Shown piece after piece: positions 25,248 through 62,908 of a DNA stretch of 64,000 bases. Within the stretch, counting starts at the first letter, position 1; the number at the start of each line of letters is the position of its first letter. The notes under the pieces are model-generated. The model saw nothing but the letters and a program-made list of their open reading frames with translations, ran no database searches and was not told where the DNA came from. The stretch spans positions 1-64,000 of the forward strand of contig NZ_FOQK01000004.1 of the NCBI RefSeq assembly GCF_900113715.1, read 5' to 3'. Source of the stretch: Pseudoselenomonas ruminantium (lineage in GTDB: Bacteria > Bacillota > Negativicutes > Selenomonadales > Selenomonadaceae). The position numbers and the translations under genes were made by a program.

Positions 25248-25269
25248 GCAGGGAGGCTGCGGTAGAAGT

Positions 25270-27321: not shown

Positions 27322-27351
27322 AAGTGAGTCAAGGAAAAAGAGTGGAGTCAT

Positions 27352-31352: not shown

Positions 31353-31367
31353 TGAAGGGAAGCTAAT

Positions 31368-32291
31368 ATGGTTAACATATCTGTAATTGTGCCGATTTAT
31401 AACAAGGTCCAATATTTGCAGCGGGCTATTGACAGTATACTGGCACAGACTATGCAGAATTTTGAAATATTGCTCATCGACGATTGCTCTACCGATGGCA
31501 GCTATGAATTATGCCAGTCCTTGTACGGAAAGCAAGAGCGGGTGCATTTATGGCAAAATGTGGAAAACATGGGCGCTAGTGCTACGCGCAATGCTGGTAT
31601 TGAAGCAGCGTGTGGCCGGTTTATCGCTTTTGTTGATGCCGATGATGTACTTCACCCCGATTATTTGAAGCGGATGTATCAAATGGCATTGCGGGAAAAT
31701 GCCGATATCGTAGCGGAGGGCAGCGGAGAAACTACGGGGCCTTTAGGACTGGAGATCCCATTGGCCCAGCGTGCCGAATATGTCTGGCAAGGCAAGTATA
31801 GGACAGCCTGTTATCAGAAGTTGTTTTCACGTGAGTTGATTTTACGTAGCAATATCCGGTTTCATCCCATCGTATTCCTTGAGGATGTTTTGTTTTCTAT
31901 CGAAGCGCTATTGGCAGCGAAACGGTTTGCTTTACTGCCGGATACGCTGTATGAAATCATTGAGACCCCGGAATCCATCACGCGTGGGGATTTGCTGGCG
32001 AAAGCTCCACAATATGTGGATTCCGTGGTAAAAGCTATCCGTTTTCTGTCTGACTATATGGAGTCCATTCCTGATTTAGCGGCAGATAAGGGAAGTAAAC
32101 AGATATTATTCGTATTTATCATGCAGTTATCGTTATTGTCGCATTTTTATGATTTGACCAAACAGCATTCCCTGGAGGCAATCAATGAGCAGATACGGCC
32201 GGTTATGGAAAAAGAATTTGGTGAGAACTATCAATATGTGACGTTGCTGCTGGACTGGTGTATGAATAAAAACAGGAAGGAGCAAGAATAA
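31368..32291 (+). CDS. GT2 glycosyltransferase
   Basis: The 307-residue protein shows ISVIVPIYNKVQYLQRAIDS, IDDCSTDGS, GASATRNAGIEAACGRFIAF and the VDADD metal site, then a helical C-terminal region. It is a close relative of the gene at 34824, and both are followed directly by a TibC-like gene. The stop (TAA 32289-32291) overlaps the next ATG by one base. GAAGGGAAG lies upstream of its ATG. Confidence 0.88.
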   Translation: MVNISVIVPIYNKVQYLQRAIDSILAQTMQNFEILLIDDCSTDGSYELCQSLYGKQERVHLWQNVENMGASATRNAGIEAACGRFIAFVDADDVLHPDYLKRMYQMALRENADIVAEGSGETTGPLGLEIPLAQRAEYVWQGKYRTACYQKLFSRELILRSNIRFHPIVFLEDVLFSIEALLAAKRFALLPDTLYEIIETPESITRGDLLAKAPQYVDSVVKAIRFLSDYMESIPDLAADKGSKQILFVFIMQLSLLSHFYDLTKQHSLEAINEQIRPVMEKEFGENYQYVTLLLDWCMNKNRKEQE

Positions 32292-33538
32292 TGGAGATGT
32301 TTCCGTATCCCATCCAGTATTTCCCTTGCCGCAAATATTCGGAAAAGCAGCAGGAATTGATGGAAGAAAACAATCGTATATTTTTTAATGAAATGCATGT
32401 TCATATGGGAGCTGTAGCTGGCGATACGGGCATTGACGGGTTGAAGCTGGATTTCCGCAATGGGCTTCGCTTGCAGGTCCCCGCAGGGGATTATCATGTG
32501 CGGATAGCAGATGCCGAAACTGGCACGGTGTATTTTGATGAAGATGCAGCCGAAGTCATCCTGGTATCGGAGGAAAAATATTATATCCCGTGGTTTATCG
32601 AGGTCTTTAACGCGGGGCAGAAGGTGTTTGAGCATTGCTTTGATCCGACAGGGCAGCGTATCCATATTGGCGTTGTCAGTACGGCTATGGGCGACACGAT
32701 TGCCTTCTTGCCTGCGGCTGTTATGTTTGCCAAGCAGTATCAAGCGAAAATCTCGATTGATGTCCGTGAAAAGTGGCGGGAGTTTATCCAGTGTGCCTAT
32801 CCGGAGATTGAGCAATGCGAGAAAATTCCCGAGGATACTTATGCGGTTTTCTGGCTCGTAATCGGTTTTGATGATCCGCATTTTATCCCGACGGATGGAC
32901 GGCGGATTCCGATGCGGGCATCGGCGCAGTATATTCTCGGACAGGATTGTATCGCACCGCGTATTCCCTGGAAACCGCGTAAACTGCGGACAATCGCAGA
33001 ACCTTATGTGTGCATTGGCGTGCAGGCTTCGGGCGTAGCTAAGACCTGGCAGTGGCCAAATGGCTGGGACGAAATCGTGGCGTATCTGAAACAACTCGGC
33101 TATCGGGTGCTGTGCATTGATCGCGACAGGGTTGTAAGTGACCAAGGCATCACTGTAAAGATGCCAGCGGGCGCCGAGGACTTTACGGGCAATATTCCAC
33201 TGGCTGAGCGGGCTGATATGCTGGCGTATGCCGATTTTTTCATCGGCCTTGGCAGTGGCCTTTCGTGGTTGGCCTGGATGGCGGGGTGTCCTGTTATCAT
33301 GATTGCTGGCTTTTCGGCAGTTTGGTATGAATTCCCGGAGGTTTATCGGGTCATGAATCCCCGCGTATGCAATGGCTGTTTCAATGATGTCCGTGTTCAT
33401 TTCTTGCGGAAAATTTGCCCGTATCATGAGCAGAAGAGTCCGCATTATCTGGAGTGCCAGCGTCAGATTGCTCCGGTAATGGTGAAAAAAGCTATCGATC
33501 GTTGCCGGCAGGAGCATAAGAAGGAGTTGCTGCAATGA
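32291..33538 (+). CDS. TibC/Aah-type autotransporter O-heptosyltransferase homologue (copy 1)
   Basis: The 415-residue protein matches the layout of TibC-family enzymes, which transfer heptose from ADP-heptose to serines of self-associating adhesins. The N-terminal beta-rich domain holds GIDGLKLDFRNGLRLQVPAG and DYHVRIADAETGTVYFDE. The GT9-like catalytic region begins near 120, with the presumed catalytic Asp135 in AMGDTIAF. The donor half holds EPYVCIGVQASGVAKTWQWP, then PAGAEDFTGN and FIGLGSGLSWLAWMAGCPVI. Four cysteines (C360, C363, C376, C389) form the metal-binding finger of the family. The TAATG and ATGA overlaps couple it to both neighbours. The acceptor is unknown; flagellin or the TpsA adhesin are candidates. 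Confidence 0.88.
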   Translation: MEMFPYPIQYFPCRKYSEKQQELMEENNRIFFNEMHVHMGAVAGDTGIDGLKLDFRNGLRLQVPAGDYHVRIADAETGTVYFDEDAAEVILVSEEKYYIPWFIEVFNAGQKVFEHCFDPTGQRIHIGVVSTAMGDTIAFLPAAVMFAKQYQAKISIDVREKWREFIQCAYPEIEQCEKIPEDTYAVFWLVIGFDDPHFIPTDGRRIPMRASAQYILGQDCIAPRIPWKPRKLRTIAEPYVCIGVQASGVAKTWQWPNGWDEIVAYLKQLGYRVLCIDRDRVVSDQGITVKMPAGAEDFTGNIPLAERADMLAYADFFIGLGSGLSWLAWMAGCPVIMIAGFSAVWYEFPEVYRVMNPRVCNGCFNDVRVHFLRKICPYHEQKSPHYLECQRQIAPVMVKKAIDRCRQEHKKELLQ

Positions 33539-34815
33539 GAGAACATGCTTTGTCTTTAGCTGGGGAACAGCTAGTGCAACTGGCCATGGATGTGCATCAG
33601 CTTTCCGTCGCGAAGCTCAAAGCGCTGATGGAGCCGGCTTTTGAGCAGGCAGGTCTGCGCAAACAGCAGGCTGGGGCAGTGAAGTCAATATTGGTGTTGT
33701 TATTCGATGCGGTAGGCGATACGGTGCTAACGACAGGCTTTATGCGGGAGCTGCGACGCGCTTATCCCCAGGCGTATATTGCTGTGCTGGTGCGGTCTGG
33801 TGTGGCGGAGCTTTGGGAATTCTGTCCGTATATCAATGAACGTATTTTGTATGATGAGCGCCGCTTTCAAGAGAATCAGCGGAAAGCTTGGCAGGAGCTA
33901 GTGGCACTTGCAGAGGAGCATCTTTGGCCAAAGCAGTTCGATGTATGTATCTCAAAGCTTTGGGGCTGGGCGCAGCTGCGCAATGAAATCCGTCTGGTGG
34001 AATACTTAAGTGGCGCCAAAGAACGCGTGGATTTCAGCAATACAGTGTTCAATGTCTATGGTAATTTCGAGGCAAAGCCTGATTTTGCAGAGGAACTGCT
34101 TACTAAGCCGTTGGTAAGTCCGCCAGAATGTATGCATGAGGCCGAGCGCATTTTTTATGTGCTGGAGGCGCTTGGGCATAAGCCAGCCGATACCAGCATG
34201 GAGTTTTGGTATAGTGCGGCAGATTGTCAGCGGGTTAAAGATTTGCTGGCTGGGCAGCAGAAAGCAGAAGTAATTTATGTTGCGCTAGGTCTTGGCGCGG
34301 GAACGCTAAATCGCAAATATCCGCCGACTTTGTTGGCTAAAGCGCTGAATACACTCAAAGCGCGTTATCCGGAATTGTGCTTCGTATTGCTGGGGGGCCC
34401 GTCGGAACAGCAGGCAGCGGAGCAGCTTCAAGAGGCTTTGCCAAAAGGCGCAGCTGTGAATCTGGCGGGCAAGACAAGGTTGCGGGAGACTGGTGCGGCA
34501 ATAGACCTATGTGCTATGTATATCGGCAACGATACAGGCACATTGCATATTGCGGCGGCTCTGCAGAAGCCAGTGCTGGCTTTTTTCCGCGATCCGTTGG
34601 ACAAGGATGATTTCCTGCCGGGGGTATTCAGTGGTTTTCATCGTTTTGCCCCGTGGCAGGTGCCCTATATTGCCCTGCGACCGGATAAGGCGATCGGTGC
34701 GTGCAAGGATGAAATCATCTATGGTGGCTGCTGCGGCAAAGAGGCGCATTGCATTACGACGATTTCACCCGATGAGGTCGTGGCGGCTTTTGAATTGCTG
34801 GTAAAGAATACGTGA
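33535..34815 (+). CDS. GT9 family glycosyltransferase (heptosyltransferase-like)
   Basis: The 426-residue protein has an N-terminal helical extension of about 45 residues and then the GT9 fold: ILVLLFDAVGDTVLTTGFMR, AVLVRSGVAELWEFCPYI, VALGLGAGTLNRKYPP and LCAMYIGNDTGTLHIAAALQ. GT9 includes the LPS ADP-heptose:heptosyltransferases (WaaC/WaaF). This copy could extend a first heptose added by the TibC-like enzyme encoded just upstream, with which it overlaps (ATGA). A Cys-rich tail (GGCCGKEAHC) is shared with the gene at 38986. Confidence 0.85.
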   Translation: MREHALSLAGEQLVQLAMDVHQLSVAKLKALMEPAFEQAGLRKQQAGAVKSILVLLFDAVGDTVLTTGFMRELRRAYPQAYIAVLVRSGVAELWEFCPYINERILYDERRFQENQRKAWQELVALAEEHLWPKQFDVCISKLWGWAQLRNEIRLVEYLSGAKERVDFSNTVFNVYGNFEAKPDFAEELLTKPLVSPPECMHEAERIFYVLEALGHKPADTSMEFWYSAADCQRVKDLLAGQQKAEVIYVALGLGAGTLNRKYPPTLLAKALNTLKARYPELCFVLLGGPSEQQAAEQLQEALPKGAAVNLAGKTRLRETGAAIDLCAMYIGNDTGTLHIAAALQKPVLAFFRDPLDKDDFLPGVFSGFHRFAPWQVPYIALRPDKAIGACKDEIIYGGCCGKEAHCITTISPDEVVAAFELLVKNT

Positions 34816-34823
34816 GGAATAGT

Positions 34824-35813
34824 ATGAGAGCTCCAATGGTATCGGTTATAGTTCCTGTTTACAATGGCGAAAAATATATCCGGGATTGCCTGCAAAGCCT
34901 GCTGACCCAGACGCTGCAGAATTTTGAACTTATCGTTGTCGATGATGCGTCGACAGACCGCAGCGGGGAAATCTGCGCGGCTATGGCGACGACTGACAGC
35001 CGTATAAGGCTTGTGCAGCTGCAAGAGAATTCCGGGGCCGGTATGGCACGCAATCGGGGAATGGAGACCGCCATAGGACGCTTCTTGACGTTTGTGGATG
35101 GCGATGACGTCGTTGAGCCAGAATATCTGAAGACACTATACGCGCAAGCAATACTGCATAATGCAGATGTGGTTTCAGGTGGTAGTCAGGAGTATCGCTT
35201 GCAGAAGGATGGTTCATACCTCTTGTATGATTTAGTACGGTTGACAGATTCGGTATGGATTATGCCAGAAAATGTTTTATTGCGTATTGAGGCAATGCTG
35301 GAAAATCGAACCAATGTTGCGTCATGGGGCAAGCTTTATCGGCGGGAGCTTATCGAAAAATATCAACTGCACTTTGATGATATGCCAAACTTTGAAGACT
35401 GTCTGTTTAATTTTCTATGCCTTTATTATGCCAAACGCTATGTGTTTATTTCCGCCACGGACTATCACTATCATGTGCGGGAGCAGTCGTTGTCACGCGG
35501 ACAGGATTTGTCTAAGATAAAGCAGTACTGGCTGTCGGGGATAAAGACATTATTGGCCTGCGAGCAATGGATGGCAGGGATGGAGCTTTTCCAGCAGAAT
35601 CCGGAGCTCAAGCAGCGGATAAAAGCTTATTTTTTCGGCATCTTCCTAAAGCGGCATATGCTGCCTGTCTCTAAGTGCTATTCCTTGGAACAAATCAATC
35701 AGGAAATCGGTCCATACTGTCAGGAATACTTTAAGGAACAGCAGGACTTTGTGATGTTGTTGCTGGATTATTGTGTGATGCAACAATATCAGCTTAAGGA
35801 TGAAGAAGAATGA
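34824..35813 (+). CDS. GT2 glycosyltransferase
   Basis: The 329-residue protein carries MVSVIVPVYNGEKYIRDCLQ, VDDASTDRS, GAGMARNRGMETAIGRFLTF and a VDGDD metal site. A helical tail (FVMLLLDYCVMQQYQLKDEE) resembles that of the gene at 31368. I chose ATG 34824, which has GTGAGG six bases upstream; an in-frame GTG at 34812 would overlap the previous gene. It is followed with an ATGA overlap by a TibC-like gene, repeating the arrangement at 31.4-33.5 kb. Confidence 0.87.
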   Translation: MRAPMVSVIVPVYNGEKYIRDCLQSLLTQTLQNFELIVVDDASTDRSGEICAAMATTDSRIRLVQLQENSGAGMARNRGMETAIGRFLTFVDGDDVVEPEYLKTLYAQAILHNADVVSGGSQEYRLQKDGSYLLYDLVRLTDSVWIMPENVLLRIEAMLENRTNVASWGKLYRRELIEKYQLHFDDMPNFEDCLFNFLCLYYAKRYVFISATDYHYHVREQSLSRGQDLSKIKQYWLSGIKTLLACEQWMAGMELFQQNPELKQRIKAYFFGIFLKRHMLPVSKCYSLEQINQEIGPYCQEYFKEQQDFVMLLLDYCVMQQYQLKDEEE

Positions 35814-37033
35814 AACCAATCGTGTTTTTTAGTGCTGCGCAAAATGAAATGAATGAATACCATCAGGCGCTGTTAGTCCGGCTGATGGAAAAGGCTGGCG
35901 AAGTCAAGGGGGAGACTGGCATCTCAGGCCTTAGGATTGATTTTAATTTTGGGCTGCGTCTTGAGGTGCCAGCGGGGGATTTTGCCGTCCGCGTGAGCGA
36001 CAGTGAAAGCGGCCAGGTGTATTTTGAGGGAGCGGTCAGCAATCAGCTACTGGCTTCCATGGAAAAATATTATATTCCCTGGCAGGTAGAAGTCTATCAA
36101 AGTGGCAGCATGGTGTTTGCGCATCGCCTGGATGTCACGGAGCAAACCGTATACTTCTATCTCGGCAATGCTTTGGGCGATATGCTGGCGGTTATGCCTT
36201 ACGTTTTGGCCTTTCAAGAAAAATATCATTGCCGGGTTGTCTGCGAGCGGCAGGAAAATTTCGCGCCGCTGTTTGACGTCTGTTGGCCGCAATTTCCCAT
36301 GGTGGAGAAACTGCCAGAAGATGCCTATGCGGCCTTTGTGCTGGGAATCTTTCAGAATGCCCCCATTTTATCGCCAACGGATGCGCGTTCGGTGCCGCTC
36401 ACGCAGCTTGGCGGTGTTCTGTTGCATCTGCCGGTTGTGCCAAGGAAGTTGCAGCTTACGGCTGCGGGGCGGAATCCCTTAATAGAAGAGCCTTATGTAT
36501 GTATTGCTACCCAGGCTTCGGGGGTCAATAAGTGCTGGCATTATCCGCAGGGCTGGAAAATCATCATCAAGCGGCTGAAACAGGCAGGCTATCGCGTGCT
36601 TTGCATCGATGGCGATCGGGAACTGCGACAGGGGAGTTATCATGTGGGGATTCCTAAAGGGGCCGAAGATTATACGGGACGGCGGCCGCTGGATGAACGC
36701 CTGGCACTGCTCAATGGGGCGGCCTGCTTCATTGGCGTGTCGAGCGGGCTTTCCTGGCTGGCCTATGCGGCAGGGACGCCGGTGGTGATGATCAGCGGCT
36801 TTACCCTGCCGTCAAATGAATTCTTTACGCCGTATCGGGTCATCAACTATCAGGTCTGTCATGGCTGCCATAATGACTTGCGCGTTGACGATAAGAATTA
36901 TTTTTGCCCGTATCATCAAGGGACGGAGCGAGAAATGGAATGCTCAAAGGGAATTACGGTTGAATATGTATGGCAGAAGATAAAGTATTGCCTGGAAAAT
37001 GGTAGGGAGGATTGGGATGAAAAGTGTGAATAA
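35810..37033 (+). CDS. TibC/Aah-type O-heptosyltransferase homologue (copy 2)
   Basis: The 407-residue protein is the copy whose motifs look closest to TibC itself. It has the N-terminal strand-loop region with SGLRIDFNFGLRLEVPAGDF, Asp124 in ALGDMLAVMP, EPYVCIATQASGVNKCWHYP, PKGAEDYTGR and IGVSSGLSWLAYAAGTPVVM, then ISGFTLPSNEFFTPYRVINY. The cysteine finger is C350, C353, C366 and C378. The donor by family is ADP-heptose; the acceptor is not known. It overlaps both neighbours, the upstream GT2 by ATGA and the downstream FkbM gene by 17 bases. Confidence 0.9.
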   Translation: MKPIVFFSAAQNEMNEYHQALLVRLMEKAGEVKGETGISGLRIDFNFGLRLEVPAGDFAVRVSDSESGQVYFEGAVSNQLLASMEKYYIPWQVEVYQSGSMVFAHRLDVTEQTVYFYLGNALGDMLAVMPYVLAFQEKYHCRVVCERQENFAPLFDVCWPQFPMVEKLPEDAYAAFVLGIFQNAPILSPTDARSVPLTQLGGVLLHLPVVPRKLQLTAAGRNPLIEEPYVCIATQASGVNKCWHYPQGWKIIIKRLKQAGYRVLCIDGDRELRQGSYHVGIPKGAEDYTGRRPLDERLALLNGAACFIGVSSGLSWLAYAAGTPVVMISGFTLPSNEFFTPYRVINYQVCHGCHNDLRVDDKNYFCPYHQGTEREMECSKGITVEYVWQKIKYCLENGREDWDEKCE

Positions 37034-37820
37034 ATGCATTGATTTTCGTTATGGGAAAATAATGTATAATGCTTTGGATCAGTATGTTGGTAAATCGTTG
37101 GAATTGTATGGTGAGTATTCGGAATCAGAAGCACGTATTTTTGAGTTTTTTATTCAGCCAGGAGATACAGTGGTTGAAGTGGGCGCTAATATCGGTTCCC
37201 ATACGGTACATTTAGCGCAGTTGGCTGGCGATAATGGCACTGTATGGGCATTTGAACCGCAACGCTTGGTTTTTCAGTTGCTGGCAGGAAACATCGCTAT
37301 AAATGGTCTTACCAATGTATATTGTGAGCAGAAATGTGTTAGCGATCGGCCAGAGACGGTGTTGGTTCCTGTGCAGGATGTTGGCACAGAAGTGAATTGG
37401 GGCGGCTTGTCGTTGGAGCATACGCAGACGGGAGAGCCGGTACCAGCTATAACATTGGATTCTCTTTCCCTATCACGGTGTGATTTCTTGAAAATAGATG
37501 TGGAAGGGATGGAGTTGAATGTATTAAAAGGAGCTGCACAGACGATAAAAAAATGCAGGCCAATCATCTATATGGAGGCAGATCGTCCGGAGAAGAAAGA
37601 TGCCTTGCTAGCCTATACAAAAACATTGGGATATCGGATTTATGCGCATAATGCGCCTTTGTATAATGAGGATAATTATTTCCATAATCCGAATAATGTT
37701 TTTGTAGCTTCGATACCAGTGGCAGAAGATACGATTGCCAAGGTACCGATGGTATCGGTGAATGTAATTTGTGTGCCGTTGGAGTCTCCGATTCAAATCA
37801 ATGGAGCAATTGAGCTATGA
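37017..37820 (+). CDS. FkbM family methyltransferase
   Basis: The 267-residue protein has the SAM-binding motif GDTVVEVGANIGSHTVHLAQ, then GTVWAFEPQR, and the FkbM signature DFLKIDVEGMELNVLKGAAQ. Members of this family O-methylate hydroxyls of sugars and polyketides. Placed after a TibC-like gene, it may methylate the glycan. ATG 37017 lies six bases after GGTAGGGAGG and inside the end of the upstream gene. Base composition is slightly more AT-rich than the genes on either side. Confidence 0.87.
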   Translation: MKSVNKCIDFRYGKIMYNALDQYVGKSLELYGEYSESEARIFEFFIQPGDTVVEVGANIGSHTVHLAQLAGDNGTVWAFEPQRLVFQLLAGNIAINGLTNVYCEQKCVSDRPETVLVPVQDVGTEVNWGGLSLEHTQTGEPVPAITLDSLSLSRCDFLKIDVEGMELNVLKGAAQTIKKCRPIIYMEADRPEKKDALLAYTKTLGYRIYAHNAPLYNEDNYFHNPNNVFVASIPVAEDTIAKVPMVSVNVICVPLESPIQINGAIEL

Positions 37821-38965
37821 GAAAAACAAGTATTGTAATACTTAGCTATAATACGCTTTCGTATACGCAGTTTTGTATCGAAAGTATTCGCGCTTATACG
37901 AGAAAAAATAGCTATGAGATTATCGTGGTAGATAATGCTTCTACGGATGGTTCGTTGGAATGGCTCAAGGAGCAGCTCGATATAAAACTCATCGCCAATA
38001 CGGAAAATGTTGGTTTTCCAGCCGGCTGCAATCAAGGCATGAAGGCCGCCGCGCCAGGAAATGATTTATTGCTGCTCAACAGCGATACGATTGTGACGCC
38101 ACACTGGCTGGATAATCTGCAGCAGGCACTTTACAGCGGGAAAGATATCGGCGCGGTCAGCTGCGTGACCAATAACTGCAGCAATGGCCAGTCGATTGCG
38201 GTGGATTACCAGACCGTAGAGGAACTGCAGCAGTTTGCAACAGGATACAACCACAGCGATGCGCAGAAGTGGTACAGCTGGCCAACATTGGTTGGTTTTT
38301 GCTTCCTGTTGAAACGTGTGGTATACGATAAGATTGGCGGTATGGACGAGCGTTACTCGCCGGGAAATTACGAGGATGATGACTATTCGTATACAATCCG
38401 TCAGGCAGGTTACCGGCTGCTTTTGTGCGCCGATACGTTTATCCATCATTTCGGCAGTGCCTCATTCAAGCAGGCACTTGATCCTGAGCAAGCCAAGGCC
38501 AGACAGGAACGCTTTGCCAAAATTTTACAGGCGAACGAAGCAAAATTCATGCAGAAATGGCAGGTATCGCCAGACCATAAAGTATTCCATGGGATTACGG
38601 ATGTGCTGCAGCCAGAGGATGCAGGCAAGCATGTTCTGCTGGTACGCTGCAGTGTGGGACTCGATTTGTGCAATTTGAAGCGCAAATATTCGCAGCTGCA
38701 CCTTTCTGGAGTGGTACTAAATGTTGCGGATAAGGCGAACGCCGTGCAGGATTTTCCTATTCGCTATGTGCCCCAATGGGAAAATATCAGTGCTGCGATT
38801 CCCGCAAGGCAGGATATTATCCTGGTACTGGGCAATGTGCGGACGATTCCGGACAGCAAGCAGGTGCTGGAAAAACTTGCCCGGCGCTTAAAACCGCTGG
38901 GGAAACTCTATTATTATGATGAGCAGCATTCGTATTGTGAGCAGCGCAATGTAGAGGATGCTTGA
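37817..38965 (+). CDS. GT2 glycosyltransferase (rhamnosyltransferase-like subgroup)
   Basis: The 382-residue protein has a GT2 domain with TSIVILSYNTLSYTQFCIES, VDNASTDGSLEWL, NVGFPAGCNQGMKAA, LLLNSDT and GGMDERYSPGNYEDDDYSYT, the ED motif of inverting GT2 enzymes. The C-terminal 120 residues form a separate alpha/beta region (HVLLVRCSVGLDLCNLKRKY, then ARRLKPLGKLYYYDEQ). That region looks like a degenerate methyltransferase-type fold. The start overlaps the previous stop (ATGA). Confidence 0.85.
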   Translation: MRKTSIVILSYNTLSYTQFCIESIRAYTRKNSYEIIVVDNASTDGSLEWLKEQLDIKLIANTENVGFPAGCNQGMKAAAPGNDLLLLNSDTIVTPHWLDNLQQALYSGKDIGAVSCVTNNCSNGQSIAVDYQTVEELQQFATGYNHSDAQKWYSWPTLVGFCFLLKRVVYDKIGGMDERYSPGNYEDDDYSYTIRQAGYRLLLCADTFIHHFGSASFKQALDPEQAKARQERFAKILQANEAKFMQKWQVSPDHKVFHGITDVLQPEDAGKHVLLVRCSVGLDLCNLKRKYSQLHLSGVVLNVADKANAVQDFPIRYVPQWENISAAIPARQDIILVLGNVRTIPDSKQVLEKLARRLKPLGKLYYYDEQHSYCEQRNVEDA

Positions 38966-38985
38966 ATACAGGGATGGTGATAGAT

Positions 38986-40320
38986 ATGCGGGCGATTGAG
39001 GATATACAGCAGGGCATCGCGATTTATGAAGAACAGATAAAGCAAACGAAGGAATTTAATACGCATGATTTTATCCAATATATGGAACCGTATTTTGTGC
39101 GGTATGGGGATCGTACGGCAATGCCAGAATCGCCGCGGAATATCCTGATCATTCATGATGCGGGCGTGGGGGACTTCATCAATCTGTCGCCATGCTTGCG
39201 GGCCATCCGCGAGCATTATCCGATGGCGCATATCGTGCTGGTACTTTTCCCGCGTGCGTTGGCCTTGGCTGAGGCCTGCCCCTATGTGGATGAGGTAATA
39301 CCAAATCTGCGCCAATGCTGGTGGGATGATTTTCTATCGCTTTACGAATGGAATCAGGACTTTTGTGCAAAGCTCCTGCCCTATCATTTTGATTTGGCGT
39401 TTGTGTTTCCGCATTATGGCAGTGCGGTGCAACTGGCGTATCTGAGCGGCGCAAAGGAGCGGGTGGCTTATGACATCAGTCGTGTGCAGAAGTCATCCTT
39501 TTGGCATGGTGACATACCCTATGATGTGGTGGAGCCATTTATTAATCGGTCTGTTCCTTATCGCAGTGAAAACACTCATGCGACAGACCGTTATCTCGGG
39601 GTACTGGATGCATTCTGGGGGCAAAAGGTAAAGGCGCGCGAGACAGAAGTCTGGTGCTGTCCTGAAGATATAAACTGTGCAGAGGAAATCCTTTCTGATT
39701 GGCTGGTGGAGCAGTATCCGCTTTATGCCATCGTCATGGGTGGTGAGGGAGCGTACAAACGCTGGCCGCCAGAAAAATATGCGCAGCTTATACGGCTTTT
39801 GCAGGAAGATTATCCTGTTTTGCGTTTTGTGCTGCTTGGTGGCGGTGCAATTGATGAGCGGGAGGTACAGCGCTTCTTGCAGGTATATGGTGAGCTGCAG
39901 GGCCGGACAGACGCTATCCGGAATCTTGTCGGCAAACTAACCTATTGCGAGACCGTTGCGGTTATCGATAAGTGTGAGGCCTATATCGGCAATGATACGG
40001 GCAATATGCATTTGGCAGCAGCCTTGGATAAACCAATCTTGGCTCCTAATTGTTTCCCCGCAGAGTTTCCGTTGGGGCCTGATGATATACCGACGATTTT
40101 TGCTCCCCGTCAGACGCCAGCTGTATTCATTCAGCCAGAAAAGGCTTTGGAGGATTGTAAAACGAAGCGCTCCGAATATGGGTGTTCTAATGCTAAGGAG
40201 GCGCATTGCATTGTTCAGATCAAGGTACAGGCAATGCGGAAGGGGTTTGACCTTTTGCGGGCGCGCTGCAATAGCGGTCAAAATGGAACAATATGTGTGA
40301 ATCAGGAGACGCTTTTATGA
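38986..40320 (+). CDS. GT9 family glycosyltransferase (heptosyltransferase-like)
   Basis: The 444-residue protein carries NILIIHDAGVGDFINLSPCL (GT9 start with the conserved Gly-Asp), MAHIVLVLFPRALALAEACP, MGGEGAYKRWPPEKYAQLI and KCEAYIGNDTGNMHLAAALD. It is a paralogue of the gene at 33535, including a Cys-containing tail (YGCSNAKEAHC). ATG 38986 was chosen because GGTGA at 38976-38980 precedes it; TTG 38962 and ATG 38974 are in-frame alternatives. It overlaps the next gene (ATGA). Confidence 0.83.
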   Translation: MRAIEDIQQGIAIYEEQIKQTKEFNTHDFIQYMEPYFVRYGDRTAMPESPRNILIIHDAGVGDFINLSPCLRAIREHYPMAHIVLVLFPRALALAEACPYVDEVIPNLRQCWWDDFLSLYEWNQDFCAKLLPYHFDLAFVFPHYGSAVQLAYLSGAKERVAYDISRVQKSSFWHGDIPYDVVEPFINRSVPYRSENTHATDRYLGVLDAFWGQKVKARETEVWCCPEDINCAEEILSDWLVEQYPLYAIVMGGEGAYKRWPPEKYAQLIRLLQEDYPVLRFVLLGGGAIDEREVQRFLQVYGELQGRTDAIRNLVGKLTYCETVAVIDKCEAYIGNDTGNMHLAAALDKPILAPNCFPAEFPLGPDDIPTIFAPRQTPAVFIQPEKALEDCKTKRSEYGCSNAKEAHCIVQIKVQAMRKGFDLLRARCNSGQNGTICVNQETLL

Positions 40321-41486
40321 TGCAGAAACAATTGGCGGCTGTTGTAGTACCAGTTTATAAGCAGGCTTTAACACCTGTTGAAATCGTAGCCTTGCGGCAG
40401 CTGCGCAAGGTGCTGGGCCATTATCCGCTGTGCTTTATCCACCCGGAATCCATGGAGCCGGATTATGGGGAACTGGGGGCAGGTATCGCTGCCGAAGCCT
40501 TTGATGATGTTTATTTCCAGAGCACTACCGGTTATAGCGCCTTACTGCTGTCGGCGGAATTTTATGACCGCTTTGCCGCTTATGAATACGTGCTGATTTA
40601 TCAGCTTGATGCCTTTGTGTTTGCTGACCGCCTGGCGGAGTTCTGTCAAATGGGCTATGACTATATCGGTGCTCCTGTACGGCGGCTGATACCGCTGTGG
40701 CATGCAATCGGCGCGCGGGTAGGCAATGGCGGCTTTTCCCTGCGGCGCGTAGCGGCTTGCCGGGCGATGATTCCTATCTGGCAAAAGATGTGGGCTGACG
40801 ACCATCCTTGGAGTGGGGAACTGCTGGACTGTGAAGACGCGTTCTGGGGGTATTGCGGGAAAAATCCTCAAGTGGATTTCAAGGTGCCAGATGTGAAAAC
40901 AGCCCTGGAGTTTGCCGTGCAGGAAAACATCCAGCATGCCTATCCGCGCATGCTGGCTGGTTGGCGGCCATTCGGCGCGCATGGCTGGAATAAGATGGAT
41001 GCAGCCTTTTGGGAGCGTATCCTTGCGCGTGAGGGCTATCCTTTGAAGGGGCTTATCAGTAATGATTTTGGCCGCAGGGATATCGTGCGGAAATGGCAGG
41101 TGCACCAGCAGGCGAATCTGCCGCGTGTCTATGGCTGCTGGCAGCGGAAGGACTTCCGTGGAGCACTTGATTTGATGCTTGACTATTTGCAGCAGTATGA
41201 TGAAGGGCATAAAACCTGGCAGCAACAGACGTATGATTTATTCCAGCTGTGGCATATGGCAGAAGGAAGCCGCGGTCGGGCGGGTATTATCAGTGACTTA
41301 TTCCAGCAGACTATTGAGGAGGCCATAAGGCGCACCATTGCGGCCGGGAACTTTACGTCACTTCAGCTCTGGTGGGGCGACCGGCTGGTAAAGCGGTTGG
41401 CTGCACAGCAAAAGCATCGCGACGGTACCGCCTTGCGGGAAATGCTGTTGTTAGGCCATGAGGCCGAGCGCCGGGCAGGATTGTAA
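40317..41486 (+). CDS. Stand-alone DUF5672 family protein
   Basis: The 389-residue protein is a paralogue of the N-terminal domain of the 28350 gene. It has AAVVVPVYKQALTPVEIVAL, LRKVLGHYPLCFIHPES, YEYVLIYQLDAFVFADRLAE, GYDYIGAPVR, ARVGNGGFSLRRVAACRAM and FGAHGWNKMDAAFWERILA. A helical C-terminal part follows. The family is annotated as putative glycosyltransferase; no donor can be inferred. ATG 40317 has CAGGAGA seven bases upstream; ATG 40320 is an alternative. The start overlaps the previous stop. Confidence 0.8.
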   Translation: MMQKQLAAVVVPVYKQALTPVEIVALRQLRKVLGHYPLCFIHPESMEPDYGELGAGIAAEAFDDVYFQSTTGYSALLLSAEFYDRFAAYEYVLIYQLDAFVFADRLAEFCQMGYDYIGAPVRRLIPLWHAIGARVGNGGFSLRRVAACRAMIPIWQKMWADDHPWSGELLDCEDAFWGYCGKNPQVDFKVPDVKTALEFAVQENIQHAYPRMLAGWRPFGAHGWNKMDAAFWERILAREGYPLKGLISNDFGRRDIVRKWQVHQQANLPRVYGCWQRKDFRGALDLMLDYLQQYDEGHKTWQQQTYDLFQLWHMAEGSRGRAGIISDLFQQTIEEAIRRTIAAGNFTSLQLWWGDRLVKRLAAQQKHRDGTALREMLLLGHEAERRAGL

Positions 41487-41497
41487 TTAAGGAGTTG

Positions 41498-42643
41498 ATG
41501 ACAGTGAAGGCACGCATAATCTTATGGGATATGGACGGCAACGGGGAAAAGTGGTTTGAAGAAAATATTCAGGCAGAACGCGTAGAACTGGTGCAACGAA
41601 TACCTTCTGGTGAGAATAATATTCAACTGAGTGATGATATCGATTTGTTGTTGATTGCTAGCAGAGTCATAGACAGCAATATCGTAAAGCTGTTGGATAA
41701 TGTTGGTTTCCACAGTGATAGAGTGGTATTCATTTATGAGATGATTAGTTGGTATGAGAAGTTTGATTTAGCGGTATTCTTGCTCAAGGATAATCCTGGT
41801 GGCATGAGGCGATTGCTTTTTTGGTATCATGAATGCAGTGCTAAGGATTATTGCAGTTGTAAGGCCGAAGAGCTTACTTTTATAGCTTCGGTGGATGATA
41901 AGGTAATCATGCCGACAATGATGCGTGATGGGCAGGTTTGGTCGGCGGATGAAATGCATTTGTTTTATAAACTGGCCCATGAATATTATGCACTTCGCGA
42001 TGATACGCCAGGCTATTTCCTCGATTTAGGAGCCAATATTGGCACGACGAGTATATATTTCCGCAAAAAGATTGATACGAACGTTGAGATAATCGCATTT
42101 GAGCCGGACGAGCGCAACAATAAGCTGCTGCAGATTAATATGCTGCTGAATGGTTTGGTAGGTGAGGCCTATGTTGAGGCCTATGGTTTATCCGATCGAC
42201 GGGAAAACAAGGAACTCTACTATGATGAAAACAACCCAGGTGGAACGAGCTTGGTTCGAAATAGCGGTGGCACGGCCACAGAGGTGCCGTTGATTTCGTT
42301 GGATGAATACTTTGAGGAAAGCGGCCTCGATGATGCTAAAATCAAGTATATATGGATTGATACGGAAGGTTTTGAGCCCTTTGTCGTGGGCGGTGCAATG
42401 AACATCCTGAAGAAGCGGGCTATTCCGTTGTACATGGAATTCAATCCCTATTGGTGGAATAAACAGGGGCTTTTGCAGACTATGGTGGACTATCTGCGTG
42501 AGGCAGGATATACAAAGTACATCCTGATTCAAGAGTATATGGAGGGAAGAGAGGCGATTTGGCCTGTTGATTCACTCGTAGCTTTTAAGGATGTTGGCCC
42601 CAATCGCCTGTGGGATATTTTCTTGATAAAGGGCGAGATATAA
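41498..42643 (+). CDS. FkbM family methyltransferase with N-terminal extension
   Basis: The 381-residue protein has about 160 residues of unassigned sequence (KARIILWDMDGNGEKWFEEN, then a region with CSAKDYCSC). The FkbM methyltransferase follows: YFLDLGANIGTTSIYFRKK, EIIAFEPDERN, GGTSLVRNSGG and YIWIDTEGFEPFVVGGAMNI. The start is uncertain: AGGAG at 41490-41494 is only three bases from ATG 41498 but nine from GTG 41504. The extension could recognise the glycan or protein acceptor. Confidence 0.82.
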   Translation: MTVKARIILWDMDGNGEKWFEENIQAERVELVQRIPSGENNIQLSDDIDLLLIASRVIDSNIVKLLDNVGFHSDRVVFIYEMISWYEKFDLAVFLLKDNPGGMRRLLFWYHECSAKDYCSCKAEELTFIASVDDKVIMPTMMRDGQVWSADEMHLFYKLAHEYYALRDDTPGYFLDLGANIGTTSIYFRKKIDTNVEIIAFEPDERNNKLLQINMLLNGLVGEAYVEAYGLSDRRENKELYYDENNPGGTSLVRNSGGTATEVPLISLDEYFEESGLDDAKIKYIWIDTEGFEPFVVGGAMNILKKRAIPLYMEFNPYWWNKQGLLQTMVDYLREAGYTKYILIQEYMEGREAIWPVDSLVAFKDVGPNRLWDIFLIKGEI

Positions 42644-42657
42644 GGAGTATAGGAACA

Positions 42658-43884
42658 ATGATTGATGTTTGCTATGCGATAGCGGATGAAAAGGGGACCT
42701 ACAGCAAGTTCCTGGGAACGTCGCTATGGTCGCTTTGCCAGCAGCATGCGGCGAAGGATTTGCATATCCATATATTGCACGATGGGACGCTGCGGGAAAA
42801 AGAAAAGCAGAGGTTTCGCCAGGCGGCCATGCATTTTGGCCAGCAGCTTTCGTTTTACAATGTGGAAGTGCTGGCAGCGGCGGAGCTTGACTATTTGCGG
42901 CAGGAATTACCTCAGGCTGGGGTATCGCGTTATACTTATGCGGCCTTTTACCGCTTGTTGGCGGCACGGTTATTGCCGCCAGCAGTGTCGCGGTTTATTT
43001 ATTTTGATGCCGATACCGTAATTCATATGGATATCGCTGGTTTGTGGCAGGAGAGCCTGGAGGATTATCCGCTGGCTGCGGTAGCAGAGTATGATGAGGC
43101 AGGAGATCCGGCGGATAATCCGATGGTGGCAGCAGGCTGGCTGGATGGCCGTGATTATTTTAACTCCGGGGTATTGCTTGTAGACCGTGAGAAGTTTTTG
43201 GCGCAGGGCGATATCCTGCGGGCAGGCATCAAGCGGTTAAAACAGCTCGAAGGATTTGTGTTTTACGATCAGGATATCCTCAATGCATATTTTGCTAACG
43301 GCTATAAACATTTGAATATTGCCTATAATGCGTTTGTGCCAGCTTTGCAGTTTCGTAAAATCCAGCAGTTGGTACCCGCAGTTTATCATTATGATGCGGG
43401 AAGTCTCGGTTTGCGGGAAGACGACGTCTATGATCGGCTATTCTATACGGTGTTTTCCCAGACGCCATGGTGCGACGAAGACTTCCTCTATCGCTGTTTT
43501 GCGCAGATGGAGCGGCAACATGATATCGATCTGGAGCTGGCGCGGCAGGTATTCAGCGTTGCCAGTCAAAGGCAGCGGATATTTTGCGCCAATGAAGCCT
43601 CACAGAAAGCGATTCAGGAACTTTTCAATTTGGGAGGGAAGGATCGTTACCTTACGATGCGCAGTGATATGGATTGGGCGGGACGCCTGTGCCAATATGA
43701 GCGCGTAAGTCCTGCGGGACGCAGGCTCTACATCTTGTTTTCGGGACAGTATGAGAAAATAAAGCAGGAACTTTTAGCGGCAGGTTGGCAGGAGGGGCAG
43801 GATTTTATGGATGGTTGGCTGCTTCTGCCGGAGAAATACAGCGGTCATCTTTTCCGTTCACCAGCACTGATCCGTAATCTATAA
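42658..43884 (+). CDS. GT8 family glycosyltransferase
   Basis: The 408-residue protein has DVCYAIADEKGTYSKFLGTS at the start, LHIHILHDGTL, and RFIYFDADTVIHMDIAGLW with the DxD at D117/D119. YFNSGVLLVDREKFLAQGDI and FYDQDILNAYFANGYKHLNI are the remaining standard GT8 (LgtC/galactosyltransferase-like) motifs. The last 130 residues are an extra domain of unknown type. ATG 42658 follows AAGGAG with 10-base spacing. Members are retaining enzymes using UDP-galactose or UDP-glucose. Confidence 0.87.
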   Translation: MIDVCYAIADEKGTYSKFLGTSLWSLCQQHAAKDLHIHILHDGTLREKEKQRFRQAAMHFGQQLSFYNVEVLAAAELDYLRQELPQAGVSRYTYAAFYRLLAARLLPPAVSRFIYFDADTVIHMDIAGLWQESLEDYPLAAVAEYDEAGDPADNPMVAAGWLDGRDYFNSGVLLVDREKFLAQGDILRAGIKRLKQLEGFVFYDQDILNAYFANGYKHLNIAYNAFVPALQFRKIQQLVPAVYHYDAGSLGLREDDVYDRLFYTVFSQTPWCDEDFLYRCFAQMERQHDIDLELARQVFSVASQRQRIFCANEASQKAIQELFNLGGKDRYLTMRSDMDWAGRLCQYERVSPAGRRLYILFSGQYEKIKQELLAAGWQEGQDFMDGWLLLPEKYSGHLFRSPALIRNL

Positions 43885-43902
43885 ACTGAGGGAAGGAAGA
43901 TC

Positions 43903-45486
43903 ATGATGCAGATAGCGGTAATCTCGATGGTACGCAACGAAGCGGATATCATCGAAAGCTTTGTGCGCCATGCCGCAAGCTTTGCGGATAAACTTTATAT
44001 AGTAGAGCATGCCAGTACGGATGGTACCTATGAGATCCTGCAGCAACTAGCAACAGAGGGCTTGCCGCTCAGTGTGCAGCAGTTTTCCGAATCGGAGCAG
44101 GCACAGGCTGAGATCATGACAGACCTGATGGAGCAGGCTTTTGCGGCGGGGGGAGACTTTGTTCTGCCGCTTGATGCCGACGAATTCCTGCTGCCCGATG
44201 GAGAACAGGATATGGCCTGGTGCCGCGAGGCGCTGCTTTCGGTCTGCAAGCCAACGGATATTTATCAGCTGCCATGGGTTACTTACCAGACGGCAGAAGA
44301 ATATCATGGCCAGCAGTTTATCCTGGCAATGGAAAGCCAGCGAGAAAGCCAGTCCGAAGAACTCGGGAAACTTCTCTTGGGGCGTGAGGCTTGGGAAAAG
44401 ACAAGTTTCCGGCTGAGCCAGGGGAACCATCATGCCTTGCTTCCTGGGGCAGATGGCTGGCAGCGGCTGAAACCTTTGCCGCTAAATGGCGTCCATCTGG
44501 CACATTACTCCTGGCGCAGCAGCGAACAGGCGGCGTCGAAAGTCGCTGTGGGGTGGCTGGCCAATGTGGCTAAATACTCGCGGCAGACGAATCTGGCCAA
44601 TCATTGGCGGCAGGGATTCTATCGGCTGCTGGCAGGCGAAAAAATGATTCGCCCGCTGTTAAAACATGGTCAGCCGGCGCGGATTGCCCCCTCTTGCAAG
44701 GCACGGCAGCTCGTGTATACGAAAGCACAGCGCGGTGAAGTGGTATTACTGCGCAATGTCTTGCTGGCGGCTGAACAGCTGGCCAATGCATATAGTGAGC
44801 AGCAGGCTGCCAGTGAACAGCATAAGGTATCGCTCCTGCTGCCCTATCTTGGAGAGCAGGAGCCCTTTCAGCAGTCCTTTGCCAGCGTGGTGGCGGAGGA
44901 TTATCCGCAGGTGAACCTTATCGTATTCCCGTTGGGAGAAACAGCAAGTCGTGACGATTGGCTGCTCGGATTCTTGGAAGAGCAGTCGGAAAAGACCACG
45001 AAGGATATTATCTATCTGCAGGAGCAGGGAGATATTCTCTGGAAGGATTTATGGGAGTCCGCAGATGGTGAATTCATCCAATGGGTATTTCCTGGCGATA
45101 TTTTAGCGAAGCATAAAATACAGCCGATGGTTACGACGCTGGCGCGTCATGGCAATATCAATTTCGTGCTGACGAATAGTCTGGATCATCCTGCTTTGCA
45201 ACCGGCAAAAGCGCAGGGCACTTTGGTGGATTTGCAGCTGCCAGATGGTTTTGCCATCGGTGATGGCAATGTCTACCGGCAATATCTGCAAGAGCACCAG
45301 GCACTGTTGACGGGCGGTTTGTCCGCGCCTTTGTTCCGGCGGCAGACGATGCAGCGGTGCGGGTTTTGCCGGGATTTCCTGCAGGGCGGTGTGCCGCAAT
45401 GGCAGGAGCTTTGGCAGGCCGTGCTGCAGGATGCCATCATTGGCGCGATGGATACTCCGTTGGTGGAAATGCATAGTCAGCTGTAG
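43903..45486 (+). CDS. GT2-like (Glyco_tranf_2_4) glycosyltransferase with extra C-terminal domain
   Basis: The 527-residue protein is a paralogue of the C-terminal 600 residues of the 28350 gene, without the DUF5672 part. It has IAVISMVRNEADIIESFVRH, STDGTYEILQQLATEGLPLS, a DxD at D91/D93 and HLAHYSWRSSEQAASKVAVG. A second GT2-like domain (KVSLLLPYLGEQEPFQQSFA) ends the protein. GGAAGGA lies before the ATG. It precedes the third TibC-like gene. Confidence 0.83.
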   Translation: MMQIAVISMVRNEADIIESFVRHAASFADKLYIVEHASTDGTYEILQQLATEGLPLSVQQFSESEQAQAEIMTDLMEQAFAAGGDFVLPLDADEFLLPDGEQDMAWCREALLSVCKPTDIYQLPWVTYQTAEEYHGQQFILAMESQRESQSEELGKLLLGREAWEKTSFRLSQGNHHALLPGADGWQRLKPLPLNGVHLAHYSWRSSEQAASKVAVGWLANVAKYSRQTNLANHWRQGFYRLLAGEKMIRPLLKHGQPARIAPSCKARQLVYTKAQRGEVVLLRNVLLAAEQLANAYSEQQAASEQHKVSLLLPYLGEQEPFQQSFASVVAEDYPQVNLIVFPLGETASRDDWLLGFLEEQSEKTTKDIIYLQEQGDILWKDLWESADGEFIQWVFPGDILAKHKIQPMVTTLARHGNINFVLTNSLDHPALQPAKAQGTLVDLQLPDGFAIGDGNVYRQYLQEHQALLTGGLSAPLFRRQTMQRCGFCRDFLQGGVPQWQELWQAVLQDAIIGAMDTPLVEMHSQL

Positions 45487-45500
45487 AAGGGGGTTGCAGG

Positions 45501-46718
45501 ATGCACTTATGGCCGGTATTGTATTTTTATTCGGGCGTGAAGGATTTTACCGCCGAAGACAGCGGGATCTTTGTACGTTATGATGAATTGGCAGGGACGG
45601 TCAAGGGGGATACGGGCATTGAGGGATTAAAAATCGATTTCAATGCCGGTGTGAGGGTGGCAGTTCCTGCTGGCGATTGGCAGGTCAGGATTACCGATGC
45701 GGACAGCGGACAGGTGTTTTTCGCGGATCAGGTGTCAGAAACGGTGCTTATCTCCATGGAGCAGTATTTCATCCGCTGGCAGATTGAGATTGCCAAAGAT
45801 GGTGAGCTCGTTTTTTCGCATACGTATGATGCGGAGGGGCAGGTGGTCTGCTTTGACCTGGCAGATGATGTGCTCGGCGATATCATCATGCTGCTGCCCT
45901 ACCTCCGGGCCTTTGTGCAGCAATGGAAATGCCGTGGCGTGATTCTCGATAAACCGGCATTCCGCGAGATCCTGGCAAACTACTATCCAGAATTTACCGT
46001 GGTGGAGGAATTTCCTGAGGATGCCTACGCGACCTACCATATCGGTGCCTTTCAGACGCCACCCTTTCTGATGCCGGACGACAGCCGGTCTTTGCCTGTT
46101 TCGTATATCGGCCGGGAATTGTTGGGGCTGTATCGGGCGGTAGAGAATGTTATCTATGAGCCAACCCAGCCGCGGGCGATAGGGGAGCCCTATGTCTGTA
46201 TCGCGGTGCAGGCCTCGGGGGCACGCAAATGCTGGCTGTATCCGCAGGGATGGGACGAGGTCGTTGCCTATCTGAAACAGCTGGGGTATCGTGTACTCTG
46301 CATCGATCGTGAACGGGTGACCCATACGGATGGCATGACCATCGAGATGCCAGCTGGTGCCGAGGATATGTCGGGCTCTTACACGTTGATGGATCGCGTC
46401 AATATGTTGGCCTATGCAGACTTTTTTATTGGCCTATCAAGTGGCTTGTCGTGGCTGGCCCATGCAGCTGGGTGCCCAGTGGTGTTGATTAGCGGCATAT
46501 CGCTGCCCTATTCGGAATTCGATACGCCCTGCCGCGTGCAGAATCGGCAGGTCTGCCATGGCTGCTATAACGATTTGCGCGTGGACTGGCGGGAGGATAA
46601 ATGTCCCTACCATAAGGGAACCGCGCGGGAATACGAATGCTCGAAGAAAATCACGCCCCAGATGGTTATCGGGACAATCGAGCGATTCTGTAAGGATATG
46701 CGGGGAAAGCAGGAGTGA
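45501..46718 (+). CDS. TibC/Aah-type O-heptosyltransferase homologue (copy 3)
   Basis: The 405-residue protein has GIEGLKIDFNAGVRVAVPAG and DWQVRITDADSGQVFFAD in the N-terminal domain, and Asp127 in VLGDIIMLLP. EPYVCIAVQASGARKCWLYP, PAGAEDMSGS and FIGLSSGLSWLAHAAGCPVV follow. The cysteine finger is C352, C355, C368 and C380. All family hallmarks are therefore present in a third copy. The ribosome site AAGGGGGT is in front of ATG 45501. A GT4 gene follows three bases after the stop. Confidence 0.88.
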   Translation: MHLWPVLYFYSGVKDFTAEDSGIFVRYDELAGTVKGDTGIEGLKIDFNAGVRVAVPAGDWQVRITDADSGQVFFADQVSETVLISMEQYFIRWQIEIAKDGELVFSHTYDAEGQVVCFDLADDVLGDIIMLLPYLRAFVQQWKCRGVILDKPAFREILANYYPEFTVVEEFPEDAYATYHIGAFQTPPFLMPDDSRSLPVSYIGRELLGLYRAVENVIYEPTQPRAIGEPYVCIAVQASGARKCWLYPQGWDEVVAYLKQLGYRVLCIDRERVTHTDGMTIEMPAGAEDMSGSYTLMDRVNMLAYADFFIGLSSGLSWLAHAAGCPVVLISGISLPYSEFDTPCRVQNRQVCHGCYNDLRVDWREDKCPYHKGTAREYECSKKITPQMVIGTIERFCKDMRGKQE

Positions 46719-46721: not shown

Positions 46722-47840
46722 ATGGCTGGGAAAAGACGAGGGATTTACAGTATTGCCCCCAATAATGGCTGGAACGATCAGCAGCTGACGAAGAACTGCG
46801 GGATTGTGCCATATCTATTTCACAAGAGATATGGCTATCGGGCGGTGATGGTTGGTACACGTATGCAGGCGGAGTATCCGTCTTTGGAACGCTATATACA
46901 GGGGGTGGAGATGGATCTTCTGCCAGATGCAGAATGGGAGACGGAATGCCGGTATCTCCTTGAAAATTATCAAGATATGGATGTACTGGTCCTGCATGGC
47001 TTGTTTCCCTTTTATTTTCCCATCCTGCACCGTTATCGTGAGCTACGTCCTGATGGCAAGGTTTATTTGGAGCTCGATCCCAATTCCTATTATGAAGACA
47101 CACTGGAATGGACACATCCCGCCTTTTTGCGGTTCCTGCAGGAATGTGATGTGATAGGGGCCAGCTGCCATCGCATGCAGAAATGCCTGGGACAAAAATG
47201 GCCCTGCGTGGTGGAATACCTGCCCAATGGCTTTTACAACTTTGACCAGCTGGATATGGCGGTAGACTTTGAGCAAAAAGAAAAGGTTATTCTGACCGTG
47301 GGCCGGATCGGCTCTGCCCAGAAGCGTAACGAAGAACTGCTGGAAGCTTTTGCCAAGGTTTATGATAAGCTGCCGGATTGGACGGTGCGCTTGGTAGGCA
47401 ATGTGGAACCGAATTTTATCCAGTGGTTTGAGGATTTTTGTCAGCGCTATCCGCAAATCGGCCGGCAAGTGGTGATGACGGGGCCAATCTTTGAGAAAAA
47501 ACAGTTGCTGGCGGAATATAAACGGGCGAAAATCTTTGCACTGACCTCGGTCTTTGAAGGTGGTACGCCCAATGTGGTGGCGGAAGCTCTATACAGTGGC
47601 TGCTATATGGTTACCTCGGACATCGATGCAGCCGATGATGTCATCGACGAAGGCCGCTGCGGGAAAAAGTACGAGCGGGAAAACATTGCTGCGCTGGCAG
47701 ATATCTTATATCAGGTATGCCGGGATGAAAATCTTATGAGGCAGGGAGGCGAGCGGGCTTTGGCCTATGCCAAAGAAGAATATGATTTCGAGAAAATCAT
47801 TCAGCACCTATATTGGCTGCTTTTCAAAGAGGTGGGATAA
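46722..47840 (+). CDS. GT4 family glycosyltransferase
   Basis: The 372-residue protein has a GT-B fold. The N-terminal half contains GIVPYLFHKRYGYRAVMVG and VLVLHGLFPFYFPIL. The C-terminal donor half begins VILTVGRIGSAQKRNEELLE and contains ALTSVFEGGTPNVVAEALYS, the E-x7-E motif of retaining GT4 enzymes. The stop overlaps the following ATG by one base (TAATG). It is cytoplasmic, with no membrane segment. Confidence 0.9.
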   Translation: MAGKRRGIYSIAPNNGWNDQQLTKNCGIVPYLFHKRYGYRAVMVGTRMQAEYPSLERYIQGVEMDLLPDAEWETECRYLLENYQDMDVLVLHGLFPFYFPILHRYRELRPDGKVYLELDPNSYYEDTLEWTHPAFLRFLQECDVIGASCHRMQKCLGQKWPCVVEYLPNGFYNFDQLDMAVDFEQKEKVILTVGRIGSAQKRNEELLEAFAKVYDKLPDWTVRLVGNVEPNFIQWFEDFCQRYPQIGRQVVMTGPIFEKKQLLAEYKRAKIFALTSVFEGGTPNVVAEALYSGCYMVTSDIDAADDVIDEGRCGKKYERENIAALADILYQVCRDENLMRQGGERALAYAKEEYDFEKIIQHLYWLLFKEVG

Positions 47841-48814: not shown

Positions 48815-48842
48815 GGTTGATATGGATTGAAGGGGGATAACG

Positions 48843-54598: not shown

Positions 54599-54643
54599 AA
54601 CAAGTTTCCGTACTTATGAATATGTTGAAAGAGGATTGTAGAA

Positions 54644-56434: not shown

Positions 56435-56554
56435 AGTGAGGATAAGCAAAGGGATTGTCTATGGAGAAATAGGTTTAATGGAGGATTTTTCTGCTGGAGT
56501 AATTACGAATGCGATAATTTAGATGATTTAAATTGGAAATATTGAGGTAAAATT

Positions 56555-57655: not shown

Positions 57656-57692
57656 GAGATGCTAATAGAATTAATATTGCGGGAGAGTTAAG

Positions 57693-58769: not shown

Positions 58770-58787
58770 ATCGGATGTGAGTTGGAT

Positions 58788-59960: not shown

Positions 59961-59964
59961 ATTT

Positions 59965-62893: not shown

Positions 62894-62908
62894 TGAGGGT
62901 TCGGTCTT

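Follow-up and report, generated by a model that had tools for sequence, protein, structure and literature searches.

The first 64,000 nucleotides of contig NZ_FOQK01000004.1 of Pseudoselenomonas ruminantium (NCBI RefSeq assembly GCF_900113715.1; this whole stretch is hereafter called the window) hold three genes for full-length proteins of the TibC/Aah family, situated downstream of a flagellin gene (Table 1). The three proteins belong to a branch of the family, branch A, which is distinct from the adhesin-modifying branch, branch B. On balance, we regard it as probable that these TibC-fold enzymes, with ADP-heptose as donor, O-heptosylate flagellin at serine and threonine residues while it is still in the cytoplasm awaiting export. 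Their genes would form part of a large island for flagellin glycosylation, along with genes for glycosyltransferases of families 41, 2 and 9 (GT41, GT2 and GT9), for FkbM methyltransferases and of the nonulosonic-acid type. More tentatively, as a proposal that seems plausible to us but falls short of probable, a dedicated Selenomonadaceae branch of TibC-fold enzymes would O-heptosylate flagellin with its paralogues dividing the sites, the family having been redirected from strand-loop-strand autotransporters to an alpha-helical, flagellar-exported substrate. Flagellin O-heptosylation itself is already known (FliC of enterotoxigenic Escherichia coli, ETEC; PMC5000012); what is new is that a separate branch of the TibC family has apparently been turned over to flagella.

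Copies 2 and 3 are 43% and 45% identical to copy 1, and the three proteins scored 344.1 (copy 1), 365.5 (copy 2) and 360.8 (copy 3) bits in a profile search with TIGR04414 (curated cut-off 200 bits), being the only matches to this model in the 3.11-Mb genome. All three have the TibC N-terminal domain TibC_1st (PF21129) over cut-off (E 1.9e-14 to 2.5e-18) and also carry Glyco_transf_9 (PF01075), and the best match of copy 1 among solved structures, by sequence, was TibC (4rap, E 5e-64). The AlphaFold (AF2) model of copy 2 (predicted local distance difference test, pLDDT, 93.2) matched TibC with Z 42.2 and a root-mean-square deviation of 2.0 Å over 374 residues, aligned from residue 25, whereas no other GT9 structure exceeded Z 21.2. 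The initial annotation, which had read these three forward-strand genes as TibC/Aah-type paralogues with the N-terminal domain, the motifs (L/M)GD, EPYVCI-QASG, AEDxxG and SGLSWLA and four cysteines, and had proposed a profile search and a structure prediction as checks, is thus borne out on each of these points, the AEDxxG motif reading AED-(F/Y/M)-(T/S)-G. Orthologues in close relatives have ratios of nonsynonymous to synonymous substitution rates (dN/dS) of 0.04-0.21 (0.08-0.12 for copy 1), so the genes are constrained and not chance open reading frames (ORFs). Chance ORFs or a misreading were rejected on the family profile scores, the 4rap match and the dN/dS values, and a plain GT9 protein without the TibC domain was rejected on the PF21129 matches and the model comparison.

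The residues required for TibC activity are the catalytic base D110, the ADP-heptose contacts K230, R286 and W305, and the four iron-finger cysteines (PMC4358343). In the alignment to TibC, the first four are identical in all three copies and each copy has cysteine at C339, C342, C358 and C370; T226 of TibC is replaced by serine in the three copies, as in 22 of the 71 adhesin-branch members. A working TibC-type transferase is predicted from these intact donor and metal sites, with ADP-heptose as the likeliest donor. Position 300 (TibC numbering) bears on the isomer used, since proline in TibC enforces ADP-D,D-heptose and serine in AAH allows both isomers (PMC4358343). This position is occupied by glycine in copy 1 and by serine in copies 2 and 3, and the latter two are predicted to use both ADP-D,D- and ADP-L,D-heptose because they share the serine of AAH. 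The thumb beta-hairpin is present in the predicted model of copy 2.

We surveyed 189 Selenomonadaceae genomes with TIGR04414 and observed two score classes (approximately 450-580 and 300-390 bits); the same two-way split was obtained with full support in a tree of 130 members and with 100/100 support in a careful tree of 67. Branch B of the larger tree holds TibC and 35 further members with a strand-loop-strand adhesin in the locus, and its sole member marked by flagellar neighbours (G165, contig 6) proved to have one as well when a longer stretch of DNA was examined. Branch A comprises 59 members, the three window proteins included: flagellar or flagellar-island neighbours were seen for 21, no neighbour of either kind for the other 38 in the DNA examined (often only 4 kb), and a strand-loop-strand adhesin neighbour for none of the 59. 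At three alignment columns the branches differ with hardly any overlap (TibC positions 68 E/K, 74 W/F and 233 L/N). In a search of 380 Negativicutes genomes, all branch-A-like members came from Selenomonadaceae, and a wider spread was rejected, since the members from other families have a canonical appearance. Two odd copies, both in G228, grouped closer to the adhesin branch; the copies in G277 and G230 resemble a broken canonical gene and a fragment, respectively. Three copies in one genome, which the initial annotation had considered exceptional, turned out to be nothing unusual, as multi-copy sets are common in Selenomonadaceae (up to nine matches per genome, tandem arrays of five). Arrays of three to five tandem branch-A genes also stand away from flagellin, among ordinary genes (L197:8127-14860 in G072 contig 18, L050:7507-13772 and L048:7535-11170); one G072 copy is split, and next to the G072 array is a protein of 1296 aa that matches an RTX-type repeat.

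Linkage to flagellin was evaluated in 24 genomes picked by assembly quality and family presence, with a limit of 36 kb that was chosen after seeing the window's own distances; the expected count is the share of each genome lying within this limit of flagellin. Of the 25 branch-A loci, 15 fell inside this distance versus 2.64 expected, and of the nine branch-B loci one did so versus 0.89 expected; the flagellin-linked branch-A loci span six genus codes. TIGR04414 exceeded its cut-off in none of nine flagellin-less Selenomonadaceae genomes versus 90 of 180 with flagellin. The setting described initially, a flagellar island of a diderm Firmicute with the three genes 17-32 kb downstream of flagellin and interleaved with GT9 and FkbM genes, is confirmed; the genome is that of a Selenomonas. 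By sequence, the close relatives are Selenomonas montiformis, Selenomonas sp. ND2010 and a metagenome-assembled genome labelled S. ruminantium. The gene order flagellin-SunS-SunS-GT41-...-TibC-like is kept across relatives, and SunS-like and GT41 genes lie between flagellin (or the contig end) and the TibC-type genes in G144, G160, G146, G157 and G184. The counterpart of copy 3 in S. montiformis is truncated, encoding 189 aa, and the GT9 gene next to it is split in two (L169:5265-5730, L169:14465), which suggests strain-to-strain change of the island. In G009 and G165 the two branches occur together: branch B accompanies a strand-loop-strand adhesin, and branch A is found within the flagellar island. 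The genes for a strand-loop-strand adhesin of about 24 repeats, for a canonical TibC-type enzyme and for a flagellin, the last one interrupted by the end of the contig, adjoin in that order on G165 contig 6 (L187:4429-12395); this is the only canonical copy seen adjoining flagellin.

TibC and AAH (BAHT family; PDB 4rap, 4rb4) modify autotransporters, described as their partners (PMC4358343), and the six autotransporter barrels of the genome under study could suggest that here, too, a type Va autotransporter, encoded at another locus, serves as acceptor. We consider this highly improbable, as the same genome has no match to TIGR04415 or to the AIDA repeat (PF16168) and no strand-loop-strand repeat over threshold. 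The TIGR04415 repeat was over cut-off in 12 Selenomonadaceae genomes, and each of the 12 has a gene of the branch-B type, which in one case is a fragment. In addition, neither an autotransporter barrel nor an AIDA repeat was found in G144 and G160, and yet these genomes keep copies 1 and 2 intact and under purifying selection (dN/dS 0.08-0.21), which makes an autotransporter an unlikely acceptor; a canonical one is not supported by the TIGR04415, AIDA or autotransporter-barrel models. Strand-loop-strand repeats were not detected in the island flagellins with a custom repeat model or Pfam.

The second acceptor to be considered is the TpsA adhesin encoded beside FlgK, which the initial annotation had placed on a par with flagellin. 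Glycosylation is known for TpsA proteins, EtpA of ETEC being an example (PMC5000012), and a TpsA/TpsB pair lies at the start of the window and beside FlgK in G144, G146 and G160 (TpsB in G145). We nevertheless judge TpsA a very unlikely acceptor, because it dissociates from the enzymes in both directions: G148 (S. ruminantium HD4) has TpsAB beside FlgK and no branch-A enzyme, and six genomes from other genera (G007, G008, G009, G165, G166 and G169) encode branch-A enzymes in their flagellar islands but show no TpsB match upstream of FlgK, the only place searched. TpsB beside FlgK was seen in G000 (the genome under study), G144, G145, G146, G160 and G148, all of one genus. All the genomes of this genus that were examined there (L213, L214, L167, L222) have TpsA/TpsB beside FlgK, with TpsA of 2666-3303 aa in the relatives, an adjacency that recalls the EtpA-flagellin link of ETEC. 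Of the two acceptors proposed initially, flagellin is thus favoured and TpsA weakened. We infer that flagellin is the likeliest acceptor, because branch A lies near flagellin and lacks a strand-loop-strand adhesin, barrel-less relatives keep the enzymes and TpsA does not track them. Residues 141-350 of the window flagellin hold 57 serine/threonine residues. Eight flagellin-like genes were also noticed on contigs 7, 9, 12 and 34 of G000, some with frames of approximately 600-1005 aa.

The genes around the three enzymes (Table 1) bear on what is glycosylated and on who lays the first sugar. The run of glycosyltransferase, methyltransferase and nucleotide-sugar genes after flagellin is on one strand and continues past the window end, and its nucleotide-sugar set is of the nonulosonic-acid type. 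Such nucleotide-sugar and NeuB/NeuC genes, together with at least one branch-A locus that stands among sugar-pathway genes without flagellin, would suit a locus that makes or modifies a surface polysaccharide (lipopolysaccharide or capsule), the flagellin genes being mere neighbours. However, no flippase, polymerase, ABC exporter, ligase or initiating sugar-phosphate transferase family was found among the scanned window genes or the genes sampled to about 80 kb, so that cytoplasmic flagellin glycosylation fits better; with the recurrent linkage of branch A to flagellin added, a polysaccharide function appears quite unlikely.

Glycan extension after a GT41 or GT2 start is the main rival, which we consider unlikely: the enzymes would lengthen or cap a glycan already present on flagellin, such as N-acetylglucosamine added by GT41, and the first sugar would not be theirs. 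The island is rich in other glycosyltransferases, the GT41 and SunS-like proteins encoded after flagellin could initiate, and plain heptosyltransferase-like GT9 genes, whose lipopolysaccharide relatives act on sugars, adjoin the TibC-type genes. Nevertheless, the whole TibC fold is kept, including the N-terminal barrel and the iron finger, which in TibC serve assembly and protein-substrate binding (PMC4358343), and we infer direct attachment to flagellin, with any division of labour among the copies being conjectural.

Table 1. Features of the window discussed in the text (coordinates in nucleotides from its first base).
Feature	Coordinates	Strand	Remarks
TpsA C-terminal fragment + TpsB	5-3246	+	YDG/MBG and ShlB/POTRA_2
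FlgK, FlgL, DUF6470, FliW-like, FlaG, FliD, FliS	5323-13348	+	Pfam
Flagellin	13560-14867	+	435 aa; PF00669 3e-35, PF00700 3e-21; proposed acceptor
Two GT2 (SunS-like) + two GT41	14934-24179	+	directly after flagellin; profile matches
TPR protein, GT4, GT2, DUF5672+GT2, GT2	24333-32291	+	profile matches
DUF5672 protein	28293-31352		
TibC-family glycosyltransferase 1	32291-33538	+	415 aa; flagellar-island branch (branch A)
GT9 (heptosyltransferase-like) without TibC N-terminal domain	33535-34815	+	PF01075 3e-16; TIGR02193 74 bits, under cut-off
TibC-family glycosyltransferase 2	35810-37033	+	407 aa; flagellar-island branch (branch A)
FkbM methyltransferase	36999-37820	+	TIGR01444 100 bits
Second GT9 without TibC N-terminal domain	38962-40320	+	PF01075 6e-20
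DUF5672 protein	40293-41486		
FkbM methyltransferase	41495-42643	+	TIGR01444 80 bits
GT8 and GT2	42610-45486	+	between glycosyltransferases 2 and 3; profile matches
TibC-family glycosyltransferase 3	45501-46718	+	405 aa; flagellar-island branch (branch A)
GT4, unassigned ORF, FkbM (48843)	46722-49979	+	profile matches
PD-(D/E)XK family transposase-like gene	50213-51070		
Nucleotide-sugar genes	53825-63961	+	NTP transferase, TPP enzyme, FkbM (56555), radical SAM/SPASM, DegT aminotransferase, PglD-like, NeuC, NeuB, CBS-NTP transferase

Some assignments in Table 1 call for comment. TpsA is fragmentary because the contig begins at the first base of the window; the FliW-like label of the ORF at 9203 comes from gene order, with homologues at the same place in relatives, and the gene at 31368-32291 was labelled GT2 from its sequence alone. 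The two DUF5672 proteins recur in flagellar islands of relatives, and a transposase-like gene lies inside the island. The nucleotide-sugar block, which over the window and locus L211 also includes a citrate-lyase-ligase-like protein, comes after the island and suggests further unusual sugars.

Compared with TibC and AAH, the window proteins share the fold, the N-terminal barrel, the catalytic aspartate, K230/R286/W305 and the four-cysteine iron finger; they differ in being approximately 35% identical, in forming a separate Selenomonadaceae branch, in being multi-copy within a flagellar island without a strand-loop-strand autotransporter partner, and in the thumb tip, and their Gly/Ser at position 300 is shared in part with AAH (Ser) and not with TibC (Pro). 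In ETEC H10407, a TibC-bearing strain, 14 heptosylated serine/threonine residues were found in FliC by direct mass spectrometry in the BEMAP study and the enzyme was not assigned (PMC5000012). Both cases combine a TibC-family enzyme with O-heptose on flagellin, which here is a prediction; unlike the window, where the enzymes look dedicated to the flagellar island, TibC has its own adhesin in ETEC. The Campylobacter, Aeromonas and enterobacterial flag-2 VR1 islands resemble the window in having glycosyltransferase and modifying genes clustered by flagellin (flag-2 has GT9 too), but no TibC-type enzyme is reported for them in the parts of the source drawn on here (PMC6993521). In the related S. 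sputigena, flagellin is heavily O-glycosylated (Rath 2018, cited in PMC13339959). The initial annotation knew of no described system of this kind: for TibC-type enzymes in a flagellar island this stands, as we found no description in the open-licence literature searched, whereas heptose on flagellin has the ETEC precedent.

Several points weigh against flagellin heptosylation by these enzymes. The TibC dodecamer needs the thumb pair F265/V266 (PMC4358343), which is replaced by G/I, S/Y and G/M in copies 1, 2 and 3, respectively; position 265 varies in both branches, the adhesin branch included, and loss of the thumb tip was therefore rejected as a branch-wide marker. One supported sub-branch of branch A (18 members) has no flagellar neighbour seen, and ten of the 25 branch-A loci are not near flagellin, with tandem arrays of up to five copies among them; the acceptors of branch A may therefore be of more than one class. 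The probabilities attached to proximity (P 1.4e-9) and to co-occurrence with flagellin (P 0.003) treat loci as independent, though the genomes are related, and ignore kinship, respectively. The flagellin glycans of S. sputigena are rhamnose-linked (Rath 2018, cited in PMC13339959). The genome has genes for the HldE kinase domain and HldD (C17:28200 and C17:29163, contig 17), but ADP-heptose genes are near-universal in the genus and give no pointer to protein heptosylation, availability of the donor being permissive only. Proximity to flagellin is, moreover, not function, and activity, sugar and site are here sequence-based predictions.

The defining enzyme of the TibC family is ring-shaped and reads the beta-helix of one adhesin class. 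Branch A offers a candidate enzyme class for flagellin heptose, which in the literature searched appears only in ETEC, with the enzyme unassigned, and the database name 'autotransporter heptosyltransferase' is probably misleading on substrate for its members. If flagellin is indeed the acceptor, a well-supported sister branch without the adhesin substrate, multi-copy and placed in flagellar islands, would show how acceptor choice can shift within a protein glycosyltransferase family.

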